From Erysipelotrichaceae bacterium (lineage in GTDB: Bacteria; Bacillota_I; Bacilli_A; Erysipelotrichales; Erysipelotrichaceae), in NCBI GenBank assembly GCA_017419165.1, contig JAFOLW010000028.1, forward strand, positions 1-64,000: DNA of 64,000 bases, written 5' to 3'. Positions 20,838 to 63,168 of this stretch are shown piece by piece. Within the stretch, counting starts at the first letter, position 1. The number at the start of each line of letters is the position of its first letter. Position numbers and translations under genes: made by a program. The notes beneath the pieces were generated by a model. The model searched no databases. It was not told the DNA's origin and saw nothing but the letters and a program-made list of their open reading frames with translations.

Positions 20838-20861
20838 CACACAATTTATGGGAATTGTGTG
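20838..20861. promoter_or_regulatory. Perfect 24-bp palindrome upstream of the PTS operon
   Basis: CACACAATT (20838-20846) and AATTGTGTG (20853-20861) are exact inverted arms with a 6-base spacer. The right arm overlaps the first of the 11-bp repeats. A dimeric repressor or activator site is likely. Confidence 0.55.
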
Positions 20862-20908
20862 ATAACTGTGTGAAAATTGTTGAAATCGCTTTCGGTATGT
20901 CCTACAAT
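20857..20908 (+). promoter_or_regulatory. PTS operon promoter with 11-bp direct repeats and a cre-like box
   Basis: Three units with exact 11-base spacing, GTGTGATAACT (20857), GTGTGAAAATT (20868) and GTTGAAATCGC (20879), run into the promoter. The -35 is TTGAAA (20880-20885) and the -10 is TACAAT (20903-20908), with a 17-base spacer. TGAAATCGCTTTCG (20881-20894) fits the CcpA cre consensus at 13 of 14 positions and covers the -35. The repeats recur before the ABC and ECF transporter genes. Confidence 0.6.
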
Positions 20909-20937: not shown

Positions 20938-21663
20938 ATGAGCAATTTAATGTTAGGTATAATCCTCGGCTTATGGTCAGGTGTGGCTATGGTCCTGGAT
21001 TTGTCCGGTTTAGGTGTCCGTACTCCTATCATCACCGGTCTCCTGGCTGGTCTTTGCACAGGTAATGTCGGCATGGGCTTGCAAGTCGGTTCCGTCATGC
21101 TGATCAACAGCTTGGGCTTCTACACTTACGGCGGAGCTACGATCCCTGACTTCATCACCGGTTCCATCTTCGGTACTGTCGTCGGTGCCAAAGCAGGTAA
21201 CGTTGATGCAGGTATCGTCGTTGCACAGGGTATCGCCCTTCTGATGTCTGAAATGGATATCTTAGGTCGTGCTTCCACAACGGTCTTCCAGCACTTAGGT
21301 GAAAAAGCATTGGCTGACAACAACATTCCTAAGTTCGAGACATTCACCTTATTAGGTGTCCTGCCTTGGGCTCTGTCAAGAATGCTGCCGGTCGTCCTGG
21401 GCATGGTCCTGATCGACAACGTCGTTGCATTGACGAACTTCGCTACGAGCATCGAATGGATCGCTAACGGTCTGAGAGTCGTCGGTAAAGTCTTACCGGC
21501 TGTCGGTTTCGCTCTTCTGTTATCCTACATGGATCTCAAGAAGTACTGGCCGTTCTTCGTTATCGGCTTCGTTCTGTTCGCATACGCCGGTATGGGTACG
21601 GTAGCTCTGGCTTTAGTCGGTCTCGCTGCTGCCAGCTTCTTTGTAAAGGGAGGTGTTGAATAA
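20938..21663 (+). CDS. Mannose-class PTS EIIC component
   Basis: 241-residue, very hydrophobic EIIC of the mannose/fructose/sorbose family. Diagnostic segments include LGLWSGVAMVLDLSGLGVRTP, GLCTGNVGMGLQVGSVMLIN and GIALLMSEMDILGR. It forms the sugar channel together with EIID. AAGGAGG lies 14 bases before the ATG, a long but usable spacing. The stop overlaps the EIID start by one base. Sugar specificity cannot be read from sequence. Confidence 0.93.
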   Translation: MSNLMLGIILGLWSGVAMVLDLSGLGVRTPIITGLLAGLCTGNVGMGLQVGSVMLINSLGFYTYGGATIPDFITGSIFGTVVGAKAGNVDAGIVVAQGIALLMSEMDILGRASTTVFQHLGEKALADNNIPKFETFTLLGVLPWALSRMLPVVLGMVLIDNVVALTNFATSIEWIANGLRVVGKVLPAVGFALLLSYMDLKKYWPFFVIGFVLFAYAGMGTVALALVGLAAASFFVKGGVE

Positions 21664-22478
21664 TGTCTAAAAAGTTAACACAAGCTGCTTTAAAGAAAGC
21701 ATGTTCAAGACATAACTGGGCATTACAGTGGTGCTGGAACTATGAAAAGATGCAGGCTGCAGGCTATGCATACGCAATGGTTCCTGTCGTAAAAGAATTA
21801 TATGATGGCAATGAAGAACAGTGCAGACAGCTCGAAAGGCATATGCAGTTCTATAACACTCACCCGGGAGCTTCCGCTCTGATCTGCGGTGCAGGTGTTG
21901 CCCTTGAAGAAGGCGGACAGCCGGAAGTTCACGACAGCTTAAAGGTCGCTTTGATGGGTCCTTTAGCCGGTATCGGTGATACGATCCAGGCCGTCTTAGT
22001 CACTCCTCCGTTCAATATCATTGCTGCAGGTCTGGCTTCCGAAGGCAATGCGATCGGTGCGATCCTTGCTTCCACGCTTCCTGTATTGGCTCTGTTCATC
22101 TTAAGATGGCCGTTGTTCAACTACGGTTACAAACAGGGTGCTAACGTTATCAACGATGTTGCAGGTGCCGGTATGATCGACAAGCTGCAGGTCGGTGCTA
22201 ATATCTTAGGTGTCACCGTCATGGGCGGATTCGTTCCTTCAATGATCGGTGCTACTCTTCCTGTCAAATTAGGTAAGGATTTGACGATCGACGGTGCTAC
22301 TGTTGAAGCTAAGACTTTACAGCAGGTCCTCGATGCCATCTTCCCGTACCTGGTACCTCTGGCACTGACATTCGGCTGCTACTATCTGATCAAGGTCAGA
22401 AAGATGTCTCCGCTGTCTGTCATCCTGATCCTCTTCGTCGTCGCATTCGTTCTGGGTGCTCTCGGCTGGATGGCTTAA
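21663..22478 (+). CDS. Mannose-class PTS EIID component
   Basis: 271-residue EIID. Family hallmarks: HNWALQWCWNYEKMQAAGYA at about 18-37, FYNTHPGASALICGAGVALEE, and LMGPLAGIGDTIQAVLVTP. The C-terminal half contains several membrane helices. Length is normal for EIID. It is translationally coupled to EIIC (TAATG) and followed by a terminator, so the EIIB gene is transcribed separately or by readthrough. Confidence 0.94.
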   Translation: MSKKLTQAALKKACSRHNWALQWCWNYEKMQAAGYAYAMVPVVKELYDGNEEQCRQLERHMQFYNTHPGASALICGAGVALEEGGQPEVHDSLKVALMGPLAGIGDTIQAVLVTPPFNIIAAGLASEGNAIGAILASTLPVLALFILRWPLFNYGYKQGANVINDVAGAGMIDKLQVGANILGVTVMGGFVPSMIGATLPVKLGKDLTIDGATVEAKTLQQVLDAIFPYLVPLALTFGCYYLIKVRKMSPLSVILILFVVAFVLGALGWMA

Positions 22479-22496
22479 TACCAAGACAGAAGATTC

Positions 22497-22530
22497 AAAG
22501 CGCAGGTCGGAAGATCTGCGCTTTCTTTTT
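22497..22530 (+). terminator. Terminator after EIID
   Basis: AAAGCGCAG (22497-22505) pairs with CTGCGCTTT (22516-22524) and is followed by CTTTTT. Confidence 0.85.
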
Positions 22531-22537
22531 GTAAAAA

Positions 22538-22567
22538 TGTAAACGCTTTACTACTCAGTGCTATAAT
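22538..22567 (+). promoter_or_regulatory. cre box and -10 of the EIIB promoter
   Basis: TGTAAACGCTTTA at 22538-22550 is a near-consensus CcpA site. TATAAT follows at 22562-22567, placing the cre box over the -35 position, as in catabolite-repressed promoters of Bacillota. Confidence 0.65.
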
Positions 22568-22588
22568 GAGTTATGGAGGTATGATTTT

Positions 22589-23074
22589 ATGATCAAACAT
22601 TTAAGAATAGACAACAGACTGATCCACGGTCAGGTCGCCGTTACCTGGATGAACTCGATCGGCGCAGACAAGATCATCGTCTGCAATGACAAGGTCGCTG
22701 CCGACCCGATCCAGAAGATGGCTTTGCCGATGGCCGCAAGAGGAAATACCGTTTATGTATTCTCTGTTGCAGAGACCATCAAATATGCGCAGGAACATCC
22801 GGATGAGACGATGTTCGTCATCTGCAAGTTCCCATCCGATGCTCTGCAGGTCTTAGAGTCCGGTGTTGAAGTCAAGGAAGTCAATGTCGGTAATGCCGCT
22901 CCGATCCAGGGAACGAATTACAAGATGGTCACGAAATCCATCGCTGTCACCGAAGATGATGCGAAGTGCTACCGCAAGATCGCCGAAATGCGCGGCGGTG
23001 TACTGACCAGCAGACTGACGACGATGAACGAAACGGAAAACTTCCTGGACCTGCTGTCCAAGAACGGATTGTAA
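22589..23074 (+). CDS. Mannose-class PTS EIIB component
   Basis: 161-residue EIIB. The phosphorylated residue is His13 in RIDNRLIHGQVAVTW, the family signature. KMALPMAARG and CKFPSDALQVLESG follow as expected. ATGGAGGT is the ribosome binding site. It passes phosphate from EIIA (50646, minus strand) to sugar entering through the EIIC/EIID channel. Confidence 0.94.
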   Translation: MIKHLRIDNRLIHGQVAVTWMNSIGADKIIVCNDKVAADPIQKMALPMAARGNTVYVFSVAETIKYAQEHPDETMFVICKFPSDALQVLESGVEVKEVNVGNAAPIQGTNYKMVTKSIAVTEDDAKCYRKIAEMRGGVLTSRLTTMNETENFLDLLSKNGL

Positions 23075-31429: not shown

Positions 31430-31462
31430 GTTAAATTTCTGTGTGAAAATCGTGTGAAAGGC
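31430..31462 (+). promoter_or_regulatory. 11-bp direct repeats upstream of the ABC transporter
   Basis: GTTAAATTTCT (31430), GTGTGAAAATC (31441) and GTGTGAAAGGC (31452) have exact 11-base spacing and stop 3 bases before the -35. The spacing and position are those of OmpR/PhoB-family activator sites. The same units occur at 20857 and 60546. Confidence 0.6.
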
Positions 31463-31465
31463 CTC

Positions 31466-31507
31466 TTAACATGGCTACCGGTTGGTGTTATAATGTAAAC
31501 GCTTGCT
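31466..31507 (+). promoter_or_regulatory. ABC transporter promoter with cre box
   Basis: The -35 is TTAACA (31466-31471) and the -10 is TATAAT (31489-31494), with a 17-base spacer. TGTAAACGCTTGCT at 31494-31507 fits the cre consensus and covers the transcription start, a position where CcpA represses. Confidence 0.75.
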
Positions 31508-31544: not shown

Positions 31545-32894
31545 ATGAAAAAGATTCTGATGGTAATGCTGAGCATCGTTTTGGCATTAACGACTTTTGT
31601 CGGCTGCTCACCTAAAGAACAACCGGCACCTTCCGGCGGAGACGCATCCAACCTTTCCGCCGTACAGCAGATCATCGCTGAAGCTCAGGGAATGACTCTG
31701 GAAGAACTGGCGAAGAAAGCGATCGAAGAATCCAACGGCAAGACATTCTATGGCGTCGGTAACTCTTCCCGCGGCAAATCCGCACTTCCTCTGTTCATCG
31801 AATATCTGCAGACGATCGATTCCAGCTACAAGCTCGACTTCGAATGGCAGCAGCCGAAGAACAACAAGATCTTCGATCAGCTGACCGCCGACAGCTTGAA
31901 GGAGACCGGCACATTCGCCATGACTCTGATCCAGGACGGCAACCAGATCGAATCCAAGATGGTCCAGACAGGCGTTCTGGATACCTTCATCCCGAAAGAG
32001 TGGGCGGAAGCCAACGGTACGACGCCGGAGGCTTACGAAGGTTATCTGCCTTTGCAGACACTGAACAAGATCTTCGAATACAACTGTGTCAATCCGGACA
32101 AGACCTATGACAACTGCTGGGACTTCGTTGCCGAAGGTGAACACGGTCTGTTCATGGATATCGATTCCGAGATCGTCGGCAAGAACTTCTTATATATGCT
32201 GACGAAGGACGAGTATTCCGCATATCTGAAGGATGCTTATGACAAGCTCTCTGCCGAGGAACAGGCATACTTCCAGCCGACGGTCGACGCCATGGCAAAA
32301 GATGCTGAGGAATTAGGCTTAGGCGAAAACGGCAAATACGCTCTGGCTTGGATCAAGCTCTGGGTCAACAGCTACAATGCCGTGACCGATGACGGCCCGA
32401 TCTGCAACACTCTGGTCGATGCATCCGCTGTCGATAAATTCGGTCTTCTGGTCTATTCCAAGGTCCGTTCCGTCGAAGAGACCGATACCGTTTCCGTCAA
32501 CAACATCAAGGTCGCCGCTTACCAGCCGGGTTACGAAGGCATCGGCGGCTACGCATATTGCCACTATCTGTTCGTTACCGATAACTCACCGCTTCCTTGG
32601 ACGGCTTGTGCGTTCATTGCTTACATGACCGAGACCGTCGACGGTTTCTCTGCATGGGGCAAGGACTTAGGCGGTTACTCTTCCAACCCGGAAGTCGCAA
32701 AGGGCACCGAAGAGAAGTATCACCACTCTGAAGGCTTATCCGCAAAGGTCGCATGCGAGACCACGATGGATAAGGGCTATGACTGGTGGACGACGGACGG
32801 CAAACTGGTCGTCGAAGATCCGAAGTACTGCGCATCCGTTGCCTTCACTGTCGGTTCCTGGATCGAAATGCTCGATAAGTATACTCCGGAATAA
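31545..32894 (+). CDS. ABC transporter substrate-binding lipoprotein
   Basis: 449 residues. Residues 1-21 are a lipoprotein signal (MKKILMVMLSIVLALTTFVGC) with lipobox TFVGC and Cys21 as the lipidated residue. After a Pro/Ser-rich linker comes an extracellular solute-binding fold of the iron/polyamine/phospho-sugar class (ESNGKTFYGVGNSSRGK and on). The ligand is not readable. GAAGGA is the ribosome binding site. A hairpin after the gene likely lets it be made in excess over the permease. Confidence 0.85.
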   Translation: MKKILMVMLSIVLALTTFVGCSPKEQPAPSGGDASNLSAVQQIIAEAQGMTLEELAKKAIEESNGKTFYGVGNSSRGKSALPLFIEYLQTIDSSYKLDFEWQQPKNNKIFDQLTADSLKETGTFAMTLIQDGNQIESKMVQTGVLDTFIPKEWAEANGTTPEAYEGYLPLQTLNKIFEYNCVNPDKTYDNCWDFVAEGEHGLFMDIDSEIVGKNFLYMLTKDEYSAYLKDAYDKLSAEEQAYFQPTVDAMAKDAEELGLGENGKYALAWIKLWVNSYNAVTDDGPICNTLVDASAVDKFGLLVYSKVRSVEETDTVSVNNIKVAAYQPGYEGIGGYAYCHYLFVTDNSPLPWTACAFIAYMTETVDGFSAWGKDLGGYSSNPEVAKGTEEKYHHSEGLSAKVACETTMDKGYDWWTTDGKLVVEDPKYCASVAFTVGSWIEMLDKYTPE

Positions 32895-32987: not shown

Positions 32988-34793
32988 ATGTCGAAATCAA
33001 TGAAAATCCGTCTGAACTCTTTGAAGACGTATCTCAGTAAGCCTCAAAACATCATCCTGATCCTGACGGGCATCTTAGTGACGTTCACGACGATCGCCCC
33101 GATCTATGCGATCATCCGCGATACTTTCCAGGTCCATCCGGGCACCATCGACCAGTATCTGTCAGGCAAGGCGAGCGGTTATACCATCGCCAACTATACC
33201 GATCTGTTCACTTCCCGACTGGCCAAGACCAATCTGTGGACGCCGTTGATGAATACGACGATCCTGGCGATCGGTTCCTGTACCTTTGCGATCCTGTTCG
33301 GCGGCGTCTTCGCTTATCTGATCACCAGGACCAACATGGCGTTCAAGAAGTATCTGAGTTCGATCTTCATCTTCCCGTACATCATGCCGCAGTGGACGCT
33401 GGCCGTCGTATGGCAGAACCTGTTCAACTCCAATCAGGTCACCGGGACGTCCAACGGCTTGCTGGCATCGTTATTCAACATCACGATGCCGGCCTGGTGG
33501 TGCGTGGGGCTCTTCCCCTGCATCATCGTCTTAGGCATGCACTATGCGCCGTTCGCCTATATCCTGATCGGCGGCATCTTCAAGAACATGGATGCAAACC
33601 TCGAGGAGGCGGCAACGATCCTGGATACGCCGCGCTGGAAGATCTTCACGCGCGTCACGATCCCGATGGTCAAACCTGCCATCCTGTCGACGATCCTGCT
33701 GGTCGCGGGTTCGACGATCGGTTCCTATCCGGTCCCGCACTATCTGGGCCTGACGACGCTGGCGACCAAGTATGTCTCGATGAACGACAAGTATACGGGC
33801 GAAGCATCGATCATCGGCATCATCATGATGCTGTTCGGTGTGGCGATCATGTATCTCAACCAGAGGTCACTGCATTCCCGCAAGTCCTATACGACCGTCA
33901 CCGGTAAGTCCGGTCAGACGACCAAGGTCAATCTGGGCTCCGGAAGATATATCATCGCGGTCATCTTTGTGATCATCACGTTCTTCACATCGATCTACCC
34001 GATCATCTCCTTCGCCTTTGAGACTTTCTTACCGAATCCGGGCGACTATTCCTTCCTGTATACGGGCAATACCAACAACCTGACCACCAAATGGTGGGTG
34101 ACCAATGAGAACGTCACCGAAAACGGTATGTACGGTCAGATGGGTATCCTTCATAACAAGACGATCTGGCATGCCTTCGGCGGCACAGTCTTAGTCTCGA
34201 TCATCTGCTGTCTGACGGCCGGTGTCATCGGAACTTTGATCGGTTATGCGGTATCGAAGGACCGTCACAGCAAGCTGGCAAGCTATGTCAACTCCATGGC
34301 CTTCCTGCCTTACCTGATGCCGTCGGTCGCCGTCGGTGCGGCTTACTTCATCCTGTTCTCTTCGGGAAAGGTGAACCTGTTCAATACCTATACCGCGCTG
34401 ATCATCGTCGGTACGGTCAAGTATATCCCGTTCGCTTCCAGGAGCTCTCTGAACTCGATGCTGCAGCTGTCCAATGAGATCGAGGAGTCAGCCATCATCC
34501 AGGACGTCCCCTGGATCAAACGCATGACCAGGATCATCATCCCGATCCAGAAGTCTTCAATCGTTTCCGGTTTCCTGCTTCCGTTCATGACCTGTCTGAG
34601 AGAACTGTCTCTGTTCATGCTGCTGTGTGTGCAGGGCTTCATCTTATCCACGACGCTGGATTATTTCGATGAAATGGGTCTCTATGCGTTCTCGAGCGGC
34701 ATCAACCTGATACTGATCGTGACGATCTTAATTTCCAACTATGCAGTCAATAAGATCACCGGCGCAAGCCTGGATGAAGGAATTGGAGGATAA
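32988..34793 (+). CDS. ABC transporter permease, two fused domains
   Basis: 601 residues containing two binding-protein-dependent permease domains of about six helices each. The EAA loops that dock the ATPase are EEAATILDTPRWKIF near 205 and EIEESAIIQDVPWIKRM near 500. Fused permeases of this kind occur in FbpB-like importers, including AfuB of the AfuABC hexose-phosphate system. The fused form means only one permease gene is needed with the ATPase that follows 5 bases later. Confidence 0.88.
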   Translation: MSKSMKIRLNSLKTYLSKPQNIILILTGILVTFTTIAPIYAIIRDTFQVHPGTIDQYLSGKASGYTIANYTDLFTSRLAKTNLWTPLMNTTILAIGSCTFAILFGGVFAYLITRTNMAFKKYLSSIFIFPYIMPQWTLAVVWQNLFNSNQVTGTSNGLLASLFNITMPAWWCVGLFPCIIVLGMHYAPFAYILIGGIFKNMDANLEEAATILDTPRWKIFTRVTIPMVKPAILSTILLVAGSTIGSYPVPHYLGLTTLATKYVSMNDKYTGEASIIGIIMMLFGVAIMYLNQRSLHSRKSYTTVTGKSGQTTKVNLGSGRYIIAVIFVIITFFTSIYPIISFAFETFLPNPGDYSFLYTGNTNNLTTKWWVTNENVTENGMYGQMGILHNKTIWHAFGGTVLVSIICCLTAGVIGTLIGYAVSKDRHSKLASYVNSMAFLPYLMPSVAVGAAYFILFSSGKVNLFNTYTALIIVGTVKYIPFASRSSLNSMLQLSNEIEESAIIQDVPWIKRMTRIIIPIQKSSIVSGFLLPFMTCLRELSLFMLLCVQGFILSTTLDYFDEMGLYAFSSGINLILIVTILISNYAVNKITGASLDEGIGG

Positions 34794-34797
34794 TACA

Positions 34798-36441
34798 ATG
34801 CCAAAAATCGTACTGGAACACGTTACGAAACGTTATGACAGATTCTATGCAGTCGATGACCTCAACCTGGTCATCGAAGATAATGCGTTCGTCACTCTGC
34901 TGGGTCCTTCGGGCTGCGGCAAGACGACGACTTTAAGGATGATCGCGGGTCTTGAGACCCCGACGACCGGCAAGATCACGATCGGTGACCGCGTCGTGTT
35001 CGATTCTTCGGAAGGCATCAATATCCCGGCCAACAAACGTAAGGTTGGATTTCTCTTCCAGAACTACGCTCTGTGGCCGAACATGACGGTCTATGAGAAC
35101 ATCTCATTCGGTCTGACCAACGTCAAGGAAGCTCTGCCGGTCATCGATTTCGATGCCCGCACTTCCGCCCAGCTGATCAAAGCCCTGCAGAGACCGGCGG
35201 ATATCGCCCGCATCATCAACGAGTGCTACGACAAGAAGGGCAAGCTCGATGAAAAGAAAGCCCTGGTCAAGCTGATCGATGCTTACGAGATCTCGCAGTT
35301 CTCGGCTAAGAAGCTTTTGAGTTACAATCTGCACAAGTCTTCCGATGCCATTGCGGAAGCACAGAAACATGTCGGGGAACTGAATCAGGTCATCGAAGAT
35401 GCCAGGAGGAAGGCTTCGGAAAAAGGCTATACGCTCGATGAAAACTTCACTGCCGTGAAAAACGGCGAAACGGTCAAGGAAGTCCGCAAGCTCACCAAGG
35501 AAGAGATGGATCTTTCCGTAAGAAGAGTCGCCCGTATCGCCAATATCGGCATGTTCATGGACCGTTATCCGGCGGAACTGTCCGGCGGCCAGCAGCAGCG
35601 TGTCGCGATCGCCAGGACTCTGGCACCGGAACCGACCGTCTTGTTCATGGATGAACCGCTGTCCAACCTGGATGCCAAGCTGCGTCTGGAGATGCGTTCC
35701 GAGCTGCAGAGACTGCACCTGGATACCGGATCGACGTTCGTCTATGTCACGCATGACCAGATGGAAGCCATGACGCTGGCGACCAAGATCTGTCTGATCG
35801 ACAACGGCGATCTTCAGCAATACGATGCGCCGCTCGATGTCTACAACAAGCCGAACAACCTCTTCGTTGCCGACTTCGTAGGCAACCCGGCGATCAACTT
35901 CATCGATGCCCGCGGCAAACAGGAGAACGGCGAGTTCGTATTCGATGTCTTCAACGGCAAGAAGCTGCGCTTCATCCCGAATGAGCCGCTGGATATCGGC
36001 GCATGGCGTGAAGGACTGAAGGAAAAGGCGGAAGAAGCGGCGAAGGAACTCAACGAGAAAGCTTCCAAGAAGGGCTATGTCGAGCGTTCCAACAAGGAGA
36101 CTTCGTTCAAGTATCACGTAGCACAGGTCAACGAACCGGAAGACTACGATGATGAGGTCGCCTATACGGATGATGACTATGTCATCGGCATCCGTCCGGA
36201 ATTCGTGGAGATCTCCAAGGATGCGAAATTCGAAGGTGAAGTCTATTCGTCCATGCCGACCGGTATGGAGACGACCGTCCGCGTCGCGATCGGCAATTAT
36301 CTTCTGACCGGTGTCATGTTCGGCGGCGTCGTCTACAAGCTGGGCGACAAAGTCAAGGTCGGTTTCAAGGGAAACAATGCGATCTTGTTCGACCGCAAGT
36401 CTTCGCAGATCATCACCTTAGGTTCTCTGAAAGAAGAATAA
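34798..36441 (+). CDS. ABC transporter ATPase with a large helical-domain insertion
   Basis: 547 residues. Walker A GPSGCGKTT (36-44), Q-loop Gln88, signature LSGGQQQR (261-268), Walker B VLFMDEP (281-287) and H-loop His319 are all intact, typical of PotA/FbpC-type ATPases. Between the Q-loop and the signature there are 173 residues where about 50 are usual; residues about 108-232 are a Lys/Glu-rich, helix-like insertion. The C-terminal regulatory domain also has a charged insertion near 405-460. Start chosen at 34798 (GGAGG upstream). Confidence 0.9.
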   Translation: MPKIVLEHVTKRYDRFYAVDDLNLVIEDNAFVTLLGPSGCGKTTTLRMIAGLETPTTGKITIGDRVVFDSSEGINIPANKRKVGFLFQNYALWPNMTVYENISFGLTNVKEALPVIDFDARTSAQLIKALQRPADIARIINECYDKKGKLDEKKALVKLIDAYEISQFSAKKLLSYNLHKSSDAIAEAQKHVGELNQVIEDARRKASEKGYTLDENFTAVKNGETVKEVRKLTKEEMDLSVRRVARIANIGMFMDRYPAELSGGQQQRVAIARTLAPEPTVLFMDEPLSNLDAKLRLEMRSELQRLHLDTGSTFVYVTHDQMEAMTLATKICLIDNGDLQQYDAPLDVYNKPNNLFVADFVGNPAINFIDARGKQENGEFVFDVFNGKKLRFIPNEPLDIGAWREGLKEKAEEAAKELNEKASKKGYVERSNKETSFKYHVAQVNEPEDYDDEVAYTDDDYVIGIRPEFVEISKDAKFEGEVYSSMPTGMETTVRVAIGNYLLTGVMFGGVVYKLGDKVKVGFKGNNAILFDRKSSQIITLGSLKEE

Positions 36442-60456: not shown

Positions 60457-60545
60457 GAATCAAGGTATTTGGGATCGTTCCCGTTTGGAGAATTAAATGA
60501 AAAAATTATTTTACACTGTCATATTAACCGATGATTGTGAATCGT

Positions 60546-60625
60546 TGGTGAAATGATTGTGATATATTTGTGAAAATGCGATTTTCCAAAGTGCGGAAAG
60601 AGGAACAGAGGTCTTATTGTATAAT
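60546..60625 (+). promoter_or_regulatory. ECF transporter promoter region with 11-bp direct repeats
   Basis: TGGTGAAATGA (60546), TTGTGATATAT (60557) and TTGTGAAAATG (60568) are spaced by exactly 11 bases, and a further TTGTGA may lie just upstream. TATAAT at 60620-60625 ends 7 bases before the ATG at 60633. The -35 is poor, consistent with activation. Repeats match those at 20857 and 31430. Confidence 0.55.
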
Positions 60626-60632
60626 TTAGAGT

Positions 60633-62345
60633 ATGGAACCGATCATTTCATTCAAGGATTTTTCATTTCAATATACGGCACAGAAACAGCCGACGCTCAA
60701 GAACATCGACCTTGAGATCTATCCGGGCGAGAAGATCCTGATCTGCGGTGCTTCCGGTTCGGGCAAGTCCACTCTGGGAAACTGCATCAACGGGCTGATC
60801 CCGTTCTCCCTGACCGGGAAGATGGAAGGGCAGTGCACCGTCGACGGGATAGAGACAAGGAATTCTTCGATCTTTGAACTGTCGACCCGTGTCGGTACGG
60901 TCCTGCAGGATCCCGACGGCCAGTTCGTCGGTCTGACCGTTGCCGAAGACATCGCTTTTGCTCTGGAGAACGACTGTGTGGAGCAGCAACGGATGAACGA
61001 GCAGATCCTGGAGGCGGCCAAGACCGTCAGCATCGAGCAGCGCCTGAAGAATGCCCCGTACGATCTTTCCGGCGGGCAGAAACAGAGAGTTTCGATGGCC
61101 GGCGTCATCGTCGACGATGTCAGGATCCTGCTGTTCGATGAGCCTTTGGCGAACCTCGATCCGGCGACCGGCAAGTCGGCGATCGAACTCATCGATCTGC
61201 TGAAGAAGGAGACCGATACGACGGTATTGATCATCGAACACCGTATCGAAGACGTCTTGTGGAAAAAGGTCGACCGCATCATCCTGATGGATGACGGAAG
61301 GATCGTGGCCGATCTGCGGCCGGAAGAACTGCTGGCTTCTTCTCTTCTGAAGGACCACGGTATCCGGGAGCCTTTGTATCTGACACTGCTGAAATATGCG
61401 GGTGCCGATCTTAAGAAGCTTCGGGGGATCGACGGGATCAATGAGCTCGTGCTGGATGAAAAGACCAAAGAGAATGTTAAAAGCTGGTATGCCCGGGCCA
61501 ATAAAGAAGAAGTCTATAACGACAACGATGTCATCCTGAAAGTGGAGGATCTCGATTTCTCCTATCAGGAAGGCGATCCGATCCTGCACAGCGTTTCTTT
61601 TGAAGTGAAGAAGGGCGAGATGATGGCGATCGTCGGACAGAACGGTGCCGGCAAGTCCACCTTATGTAAGGTGATCTGCGGTTTTGAAAAGCCGTCCAAG
61701 GGGAAAGTCTTCTTTGAAGGCGGGGACATCACGGAGGATTCCATCCGTTCCCGCGCATCCAAGATCGGTTACGTCATGCAGAACCCCAACCAGATGATCT
61801 CACAGGCGATGATCTTCGATGAGGTGGCGATGGGAATACGCAATACGGGCTTGAGTGAAGAAGAGATCAGGGAAAAGGTCTATGCGACGCTTAAGATCTG
61901 CGGCTTGTATGAGTTCCGCAACTGGCCGATCTCGGCATTGTCGTTCGGTCAGAAGAAACGTGTGACGATCGCTTCGATCCTGGTCATGGGACCGAAGATC
62001 ATCATTCTGGATGAACCGACAGCCGGTCAGGATTTTGCCCATTATACCGACATCATGGAATTCCTCAAGGAGCTGAACGGCAAAGGCATCACCATCATCA
62101 TGATCACGCATGACATGCATCTGATGCTGGAATATACAAAGAGGTCCCTGGTCTTTACCGACGGAAGGATCGTCGCGGATGCTTCCGGTTCGGCGGTGCT
62201 TTGCGATGAGGACCTGGTCAAAAAGGCATCTTTGAAAGAGACTTCTTTATTCAAGATCGCGACCGACTGCGGCATTGCGGATCCGGTGGATTTCGTCGAC
62301 TGTTTCATCGATTACGACAGGAAGGAGCGCGAACATGGCAAGTAA
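60633..62345 (+). CDS. ECF transporter ATPase, two fused domains
   Basis: 570 residues with two complete ATPase domains. Domain 1: Walker A GASGSGKST (39-47), signature LSGGQKQR (145-152), Walker B ILLFDEP. Domain 2: GQNGAGKST near 335, signature LSFGQKKR near 436, and IIILDEP. It corresponds to EcfA1 plus EcfA2 in one chain, as in YkoD-like proteins, and powers uptake of a vitamin or similar micronutrient. The gene appears leaderless and overlaps the EcfT gene by 11 bases. Confidence 0.92.
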   Translation: MEPIISFKDFSFQYTAQKQPTLKNIDLEIYPGEKILICGASGSGKSTLGNCINGLIPFSLTGKMEGQCTVDGIETRNSSIFELSTRVGTVLQDPDGQFVGLTVAEDIAFALENDCVEQQRMNEQILEAAKTVSIEQRLKNAPYDLSGGQKQRVSMAGVIVDDVRILLFDEPLANLDPATGKSAIELIDLLKKETDTTVLIIEHRIEDVLWKKVDRIILMDDGRIVADLRPEELLASSLLKDHGIREPLYLTLLKYAGADLKKLRGIDGINELVLDEKTKENVKSWYARANKEEVYNDNDVILKVEDLDFSYQEGDPILHSVSFEVKKGEMMAIVGQNGAGKSTLCKVICGFEKPSKGKVFFEGGDITEDSIRSRASKIGYVMQNPNQMISQAMIFDEVAMGIRNTGLSEEEIREKVYATLKICGLYEFRNWPISALSFGQKKRVTIASILVMGPKIIILDEPTAGQDFAHYTDIMEFLKELNGKGITIIMITHDMHLMLEYTKRSLVFTDGRIVADASGSAVLCDEDLVKKASLKETSLFKIATDCGIADPVDFVDCFIDYDRKEREHGK

Positions 62346-63168
62346 GGTATTGAACTATATCCCGAAGAAGTCATTCATCCACTCCCTTTCCGGGACGACC
62401 AAGCTGGTCATCTTCTTAAGTTTCTCATTTCTCTGCGGACTGTCTTTCGATACGAGAGTCCTGCTGTTTCTTTTATGTATGTCATTCCTGGGTTTTGCCT
62501 TAAGCAGGATCAAGCTTTCCGAGATCCGGCTGATGTCGACTTTCCTGGTGATCTTCATCGTCATGAATGCGATCTTGTTGTTCCTGTTCAATCCGGAATA
62601 CGGACCGGAGCTTTACGGTTCCAGGACGGTCTTGTTTCATATCGCAGGGAAATATGACATGACTTTGGAACAGCTCTTCTATCAGTTCAATGTGTCTTTG
62701 AAGTATGTCATCGGTTTCCCGATCGCGATCTTGTTCATATCGACGACCAATCCGAGTGAGTTCGCTTCCTCGTTGTCGTCGCTCGGTGTTCCTTACCGGA
62801 TCTCTTATTCGGTCTCGCTGGCGCTCCGTTATATCCCGGATATCCAGCAGGAGTATCATGAGATCTCCCAGTCTCAGGAAGCCAGAGGCGTGGCTTTGGG
62901 CAAGGATGTGAAGTTCTTCGAGCGGATCAAGAATTCCGCCAAGATCCTGCTTCCGCTGGTGCTGAATTCGCTGAACCGCATCGATCAGATCTCCAATTCG
63001 ATGCAGCTGAGAAGTTTCGGCAAGCACAAGAAGCGTACCTGGTTCATGAGAAAGAAGATGACGGCGGCGGATTACGGCGTCATCGGCTTATGTGTTTTGA
63101 TCTTCGTTGTCGGACTGATCATCACCAATCAGGGCGGCAACAATCTGTACAATCCGTTCATGAGGTAA
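62335..63168 (+). CDS. ECF transporter transmembrane component EcfT
   Basis: 277 residues with about five membrane helices. The coupling motifs that touch the ATPases are QEARGVALG near 200 (Ala-Arg-Gly core) and a second downstream, SMQLRSFGKHKKR. The start at 62335 follows AAGGAG. Together with the fused ATPase it makes the energy-coupling module; no substrate-binding S component is seen within the window. Confidence 0.9.
   Translation: MASKVLNYIPKKSFIHSLSGTTKLVIFLSFSFLCGLSFDTRVLLFLLCMSFLGFALSRIKLSEIRLMSTFLVIFIVMNAILLFLFNPEYGPELYGSRTVLFHIAGKYDMTLEQLFYQFNVSLKYVIGFPIAILFISTTNPSEFASSLSSLGVPYRISYSVSLALRYIPDIQQEYHEISQSQEARGVALGKDVKFFERIKNSAKILLPLVLNSLNRIDQISNSMQLRSFGKHKKRTWFMRKKMTAADYGVIGLCVLIFVVGLIITNQGGNNLYNPFMR

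Follow-up and report, generated by a model that had tools for sequence, protein, structure and literature searches.

Three transporter operons in a stretch of Erysipelotrichaceae DNA (64,000 nucleotides, hereafter the window) are preceded by the same element, a direct repeat of TGTGAA-like hexamers. We consider the element to mark a genuine two-component regulon that spans the lineage, is of a familiar kind and seems not to have been described. The repeats are probably tandem binding sites of a response regulator of the OmpR/PhoB family, most likely a protein encoded outside the window that we call RR-A. Binding by RR-A and its signal are what we infer; the motif, its spacing, enrichment, conservation and promoter geometry, and the site before the RR-A gene itself, can be read directly in the sequences.

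The window's genome assembly comprises 1.79 Mb and is 72.6% complete; the closest relatives of its ABC binding protein are found in Erysipelotrichaceae genomes from ruminant-gut metagenomes. The genome was examined by pattern searches and through the stretches around the matches. Counts for the genus cover 36 genomes, with the reversed pattern as the control.

The repeat at three importer promoters

The sequences and coordinates quoted in the sequence-only reading of this DNA are present in the window. That reading placed three units before each operon. A shared direct repeat was indeed found, with a different number of units at each promoter: two for ABC, two plus one at 9 bp for PTS, and four for ECF (Table 1). 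Upstream of the ABC operon, the true copies are GTGTGAAAATC (31441) and GTGTGAAAGGC (31452). The supposed first copy, GTTAAATTTCT (31430), is identical to GTGTGAAAATC at 3/11 positions and is not retained in ABC orthologs; the ABC element therefore has two units rather than three with an exact 11-base period. The gap of 3 bases between these repeats and the -35 hexamer was given correctly. Two TGTGA units at 11 bp are kept in 13/18 aligned ABC orthologs, and the promoter is kept in the close ones. Moreover, close orthologs show TGTAAACGCTTGCA-like sequence at the position of TGTAAACGCTTGCT, which, like TTGAAATCGCTTTCGG of the PTS promoter, we take to resemble a cre site; sites of this type are pseudo-palindromes centred on CG. 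The binding protein of the ABC operon had no match in Pfam, NCBIfam or PDB sequences, and its 74 homologous loci belong to Bacillota and Spirochaetes. The ATPase domain of the same operon appears interrupted by an insert of ~80-100 residues, with matches at residues 39-148 and from ~231.

Table 1. Features of the three operons and of the candidate regulator; promoter elements were read from the sequence.
Feature	Position	Strand	Remarks
Extra TGGGAA before PTS pair	20849-20854	+	9 bp upstream of first box; TGTGAA in most orthologs
PTS pair, TGTGAT-N5-TGTGAA	20858-20874	+	boxes 20858-20863 and 20869-20874
PTS promoter	20880-20908	+	-35 TTGAAA 20880-20885; spacer 17; -10 TACAAT 20903-20908
cre-like TTGAAATCGCTTTCGG at PTS promoter	20880-20895	+	overlaps -35
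Mannose/sorbose-class PTS genes IIC, IID, IIB	20938-23074	+	
ABC pair, TGTGAA-N5-TGTGAA	31442-31458	+	boxes 31442-31447 and 31453-31458
ABC promoter	31466-31494	+	-35 TTAACA 31466-31471; 17-bp spacer; -10 TATAAT 31489-31494
cre-like TGTAAACGCTTGCT at ABC promoter	31494-31507	+	covers expected transcription start
Lipoprotein-type binding protein	31545-32894	+	first gene of ABC operon
Fused two-domain ABC permease and ABC ATPase	32988-36441	+	permease 32988-34793 (BPD_transp_1 x2); ATPase 34741-36441 (ABC_tran)
Four TGTGAA-like boxes before ECF operon	60536-60574	+	starts 60536, 60547, 60558, 60569; exact 11-bp steps
ECF -10 TATAAT	60620-60625	+	45 bp past last box
ECF transporter	60633-63168	+	double ATPase 60633-62345; CbiQ-type T component 62275-63168
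RR-A, OmpR/PhoB-type regulator gene (Trans_reg_C)	G000 contig C50:344-1006		outside window; adjoins HAMP/HisKA sensor kinase

At the PTS operon, the first two of the reported units (20857 and 20868) hold, but the third (20879) is the -35 TTGAAA, which lies inside TTGAAATCGCTTTCGG. The PTS promoter is kept in orthologs, and across 18 PTS sequences from the genus, conservation of the TGTGA letters roughly equals that of the -35 and of the ribosome site. We also observed that the third TGTGAA of PTS orthologs (region 20849-20874) precedes the pair by 9 bp instead of 11. Before the ECF operon, the 11-bp repeat was recognised correctly, although the first of its four units (60536) had been overlooked. 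Arrays resembling it occur in only ~5 close relatives, and the site is poorly kept in distant orthologs. Conservation ahead of orthologous operons, on which the proposed regulon had been made to depend, was thus found for PTS and ABC, and for ECF in close relatives only.

Enrichment of the repeat and its two promoter geometries

The window contains seven period-11 triples at a score of at least 14/18 and three at at least 16/18, against means of 0.46 and 0.005 in 200 simulated third-order Markov windows. None of the 200 simulated windows attained the observed counts of triples or pairs. With periods of 8-10 and 12-15, the window holds 0-2 triples at the lower threshold and none at the higher. 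In the window's genome, 14 places match the pair with at most one mismatch, compared with one for the reversed control. Among the 36 genus genomes, exact TGTGAA-N5-TGTGAA occurs 98 times and its reversed counterpart 7 times, and this 11-bp repeat of two half-sites bears out the direct-repeat element of OmpR/PhoB type that had been proposed. When spacers of 2 to 9 bases were allowed, 197 pairs were counted in total; the seven spacings other than N5 together gave 99, or ~14 each, which makes N5 ~7 times as frequent as the other spacings on average. The frequency of the motif is far above the random rate that would have spoken against it, as the simulation, reversed-pattern and spacing controls all show. 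For the whole set, a chance pattern is refuted by these controls, and we assign it next to no probability; single sites could be due to chance, and some individual loci, ECF among them, show poor conservation in distant orthologs.

All 98 exact sites of the genus were read on both strands, and a -10 hexamer was called TATAAT-like if at least 5 of 6 positions matched. On the TTCACA side, such a -10 lies at exactly 9 bp in 43/98 sites. On the TGTGAA side, it lies at 28-32 bp in ~30/98 sites, which places the TGTGAA pair just upstream of the -35. The opposite orientation at a fixed distance of 9 bp from the -10 is a second use of the same element.

Genes on the TGTGAA side are mostly importers, as judged from sequence clusters and domain matches. 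In the genus they include MglB-type and OppA-type binding proteins, the ABC transporter of the window, PTS components, ECF, an OppB-type permease and a DUF3798 protein. In the window's genome, intergenic sites of this orientation lie ahead of the three window operons and also of genes for an MglB-type protein, an OppB-type permease and a membrane pair (DUF969/DUF979). The TTCACA side is mixed, with AATase-like and (by eye) DegV-type proteins, a group adjoining ychF, and a VTC/DUF4956 operon of the polyphosphate polymerase type, in which TTCAGA-N5-TTCACA stands 9 bp before a TATCAT -10 (L187:12734-12750). Sites in genus g31 precede a more mixed set, comprising RR-A, a PTS component and binding proteins, and by eye also esterases, one aldolase-like protein and one protease-like protein.

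The AAA runs that recur at 11-bp intervals just upstream of the -35 could be phased A-tracts or UP elements aiding RNA polymerase directly, with no regulator involved. We find this reading hardly credible. PTS orthologs conserve the TGTGA letters and not just the A run, the reversed pattern retains the A run yet is far rarer, and a specific protein is indicated by the TTCACA pairs spaced 9 bp from a -10.

RR-A as the candidate regulator

Four Trans_reg_C regulators are encoded in the window's genome. One of them, RR-A, is found in 31/36 genus genomes at 70-95% identity, always with the kinase adjacent. With the 9-bp geometry, the sequence TTCAG.-N5-TTCACA precedes the RR-A start codon at -38/-39 in 29 of 30 genus rows; the thirtieth row has no upstream sequence. 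This promoter pair scores 10-11 out of 12, compared with 7-9 for the reversed control, and its first box (TTCAGT) is imperfect. Exact or near-exact pairs also precede RR-A homologs in genera g20, g30, g31, g58 and g7. On a tree of 71 regulators, including the 30 genus RR-A rows, the site label changes 8 times compared with a mean of 21.9 after shuffling, a clustering of the kind that near-copies inflate. In G005, which is 99% complete, RR-A and its paralog RR-B are the sole regulators of the OmpR/PhoB family, and the motif is kept. RR-A is the best candidate because the pair precedes it in all readable genus orthologs and recurs in other genera. The idea of a common response regulator for the three importers consequently gains a candidate that carries the element before its own gene, although the ECF site is kept in close relatives only.

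Across the family, motif abundance and RR-A do not coincide perfectly. Motif sites are kept without a detected RR-A in G025 (97% complete) and G027 (78%). The motif abounds in genera g10 and g21, yet no site precedes any RR-A homolog there, and g21 gave no RR-A homolog at 1e-58; in g18 and g57, the RR-A site is present and exact motifs are few. A search for RR-A at 1e-85 suggested little link with the motif outside the genus, and a looser search of chosen genomes found site-bearing homologs. Since G025, G027, g10, g21, g18 and g31 do not fit, we regard RR-A and the motif as the best match and not as a proven pair. In two genomes of g21 (G055 and G104), we observed several TGTGAATTTAATGTGAA-type repeats, which perhaps serve another regulator.

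It is conceivable, though unlikely, that RR-B, encoded behind dnaE, binds the sites alone or together with RR-A, the two orientations perhaps being meant for different regulators. The recognition helices of RR-A and RR-B are nearly alike (RTLDTHMKLLRKDL and RTIDTHIKMLRKDL), RR-B is present where RR-A was undetected, e.g. in G025 and G023, and in genus g7 a TTCACA pair stands before an RR-B-like gene. In the home genus, however, no TTCACA pair precedes RR-B, whereas RR-A carries the pair throughout.

Relation to known systems and proposed mode of action

Every known binding site of the OmpR/PhoB family is a direct repeat (PMC4832192). A CRP-type site was rejected, as the units are direct rather than inverted. 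PhoP of M. tuberculosis depends on 7-bp motifs spaced strictly 4 bp apart, TCACAGC-N4-TCACAGC (PMC4832192), and thus shares with our element the TCACA core, the direct repeat and the 11-bp period. Among PDB sequences, it is also one of the best matches to RR-A. In the alignment, the recognition helix reads NVVESYVSY in PhoP and RTLDTHMKL in RR-A, with different base-contacting residues, and the targets differ too. Because the base-contacting residues of PhoP are not kept in RR-A, we treat the common core as a resemblance only.

Pho boxes, bound by PhoB/PhoP in Escherichia and Bacillus, are 11-bp direct repeats located ~10 bp upstream of the -10, where they replace the -35. Our element resembles them in its period and, at 9 bp from the -10, in taking the -35 place, but it has other letters and importers rather than phosphate genes as targets. 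The Pho interpretation raised by the sequence-only reading is disfavoured, since a separate PhoB-like regulator/kinase pair adjoins a Na/Pi-cotransporter gene and RR-A stays below the cut-off of the PhoB model TIGR02154 (195 bits against 296). The promoter of the PhoB-like regulator itself has a weak match only (9/12), and the PstS model gave three matches above its cut-off in the genus. ResD of Bacillus recognises TTTGTGAAT; it has the tandem TGTGAA core in common with our element and differs in governing an anaerobic respiration regulon.

The spacing and orientation are also those of WalR/VicR sites, TGTWAH-N5-TGTWAH (PMC4168254): two direct-repeat hexamers with a 5-bp spacer and an 11-bp period, upstream of the -35 at activated promoters. 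We nevertheless consider it very unlikely that the repeats belong to a WalR/VicR-type or another unrelated regulator with a similar TGTNA half-site. The fourth base of the conserved units is G, not A/T, and the targets are importers, not cell-wall genes. The four regulators of the window's genome reach 159-192 bits against a YycF cut-off of 340, in an assembly that is 72.6% complete. Moreover, RR-A is favoured by the site in front of its own gene.

With RR-A as the regulator, a head-to-tail dimer would read a pair of hexamers spaced by one helical turn, TGTGAA-N5-TGTGAA or, on the other strand, TTCACA-N5-TTCACA. At importer promoters, including those of the window's ABC and PTS operons, the TGTGAA pair would act from just upstream of the -35. 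At the RR-A gene and the VTC/DUF4956 operon, the TTCACA pair would act from 9 bp upstream of the -10, in the place of the -35, as in Pho-box promoters. Positive control would be the simplest reading of both geometries, and the position of the sites suggests activation rather than repression. At the ABC and PTS promoters, CcpA may in addition bind the putative cre-like sites and repress when a preferred sugar is present. A broader view, in which one regulator uses one repeat in two orientations and two activation geometries, the reversed one setting many nutrient importers of gut Erysipelotrichaceae together with CcpA as a lineage-specific master switch for nutrient uptake, is possible, and we offer it tentatively as the less probable case.

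No two-component regulon was found described for Erysipelotrichaceae in the open full-text literature (subscription papers being outside this scope), and a literature search for a regulator of TTCACA/TGTGAA repeats in this family returned nothing relevant. With the motif defined, a regulator/kinase pair proposed and targets listed, it can be tested directly whether importers of the sugar, peptide and vitamin type are under two-component control in bacteria of the ruminant gut. The use of opposite orientations at two types of promoter would also inform how tandem OmpR-family dimers activate transcription. We must also note that the RR-A start codon lies ~6 nt past the predicted -10, with no ribosome site in between (L016/L188, G000:C50:306-344), in nearly all genus orthologs, which suggests that the RR-A mRNA is leaderless.
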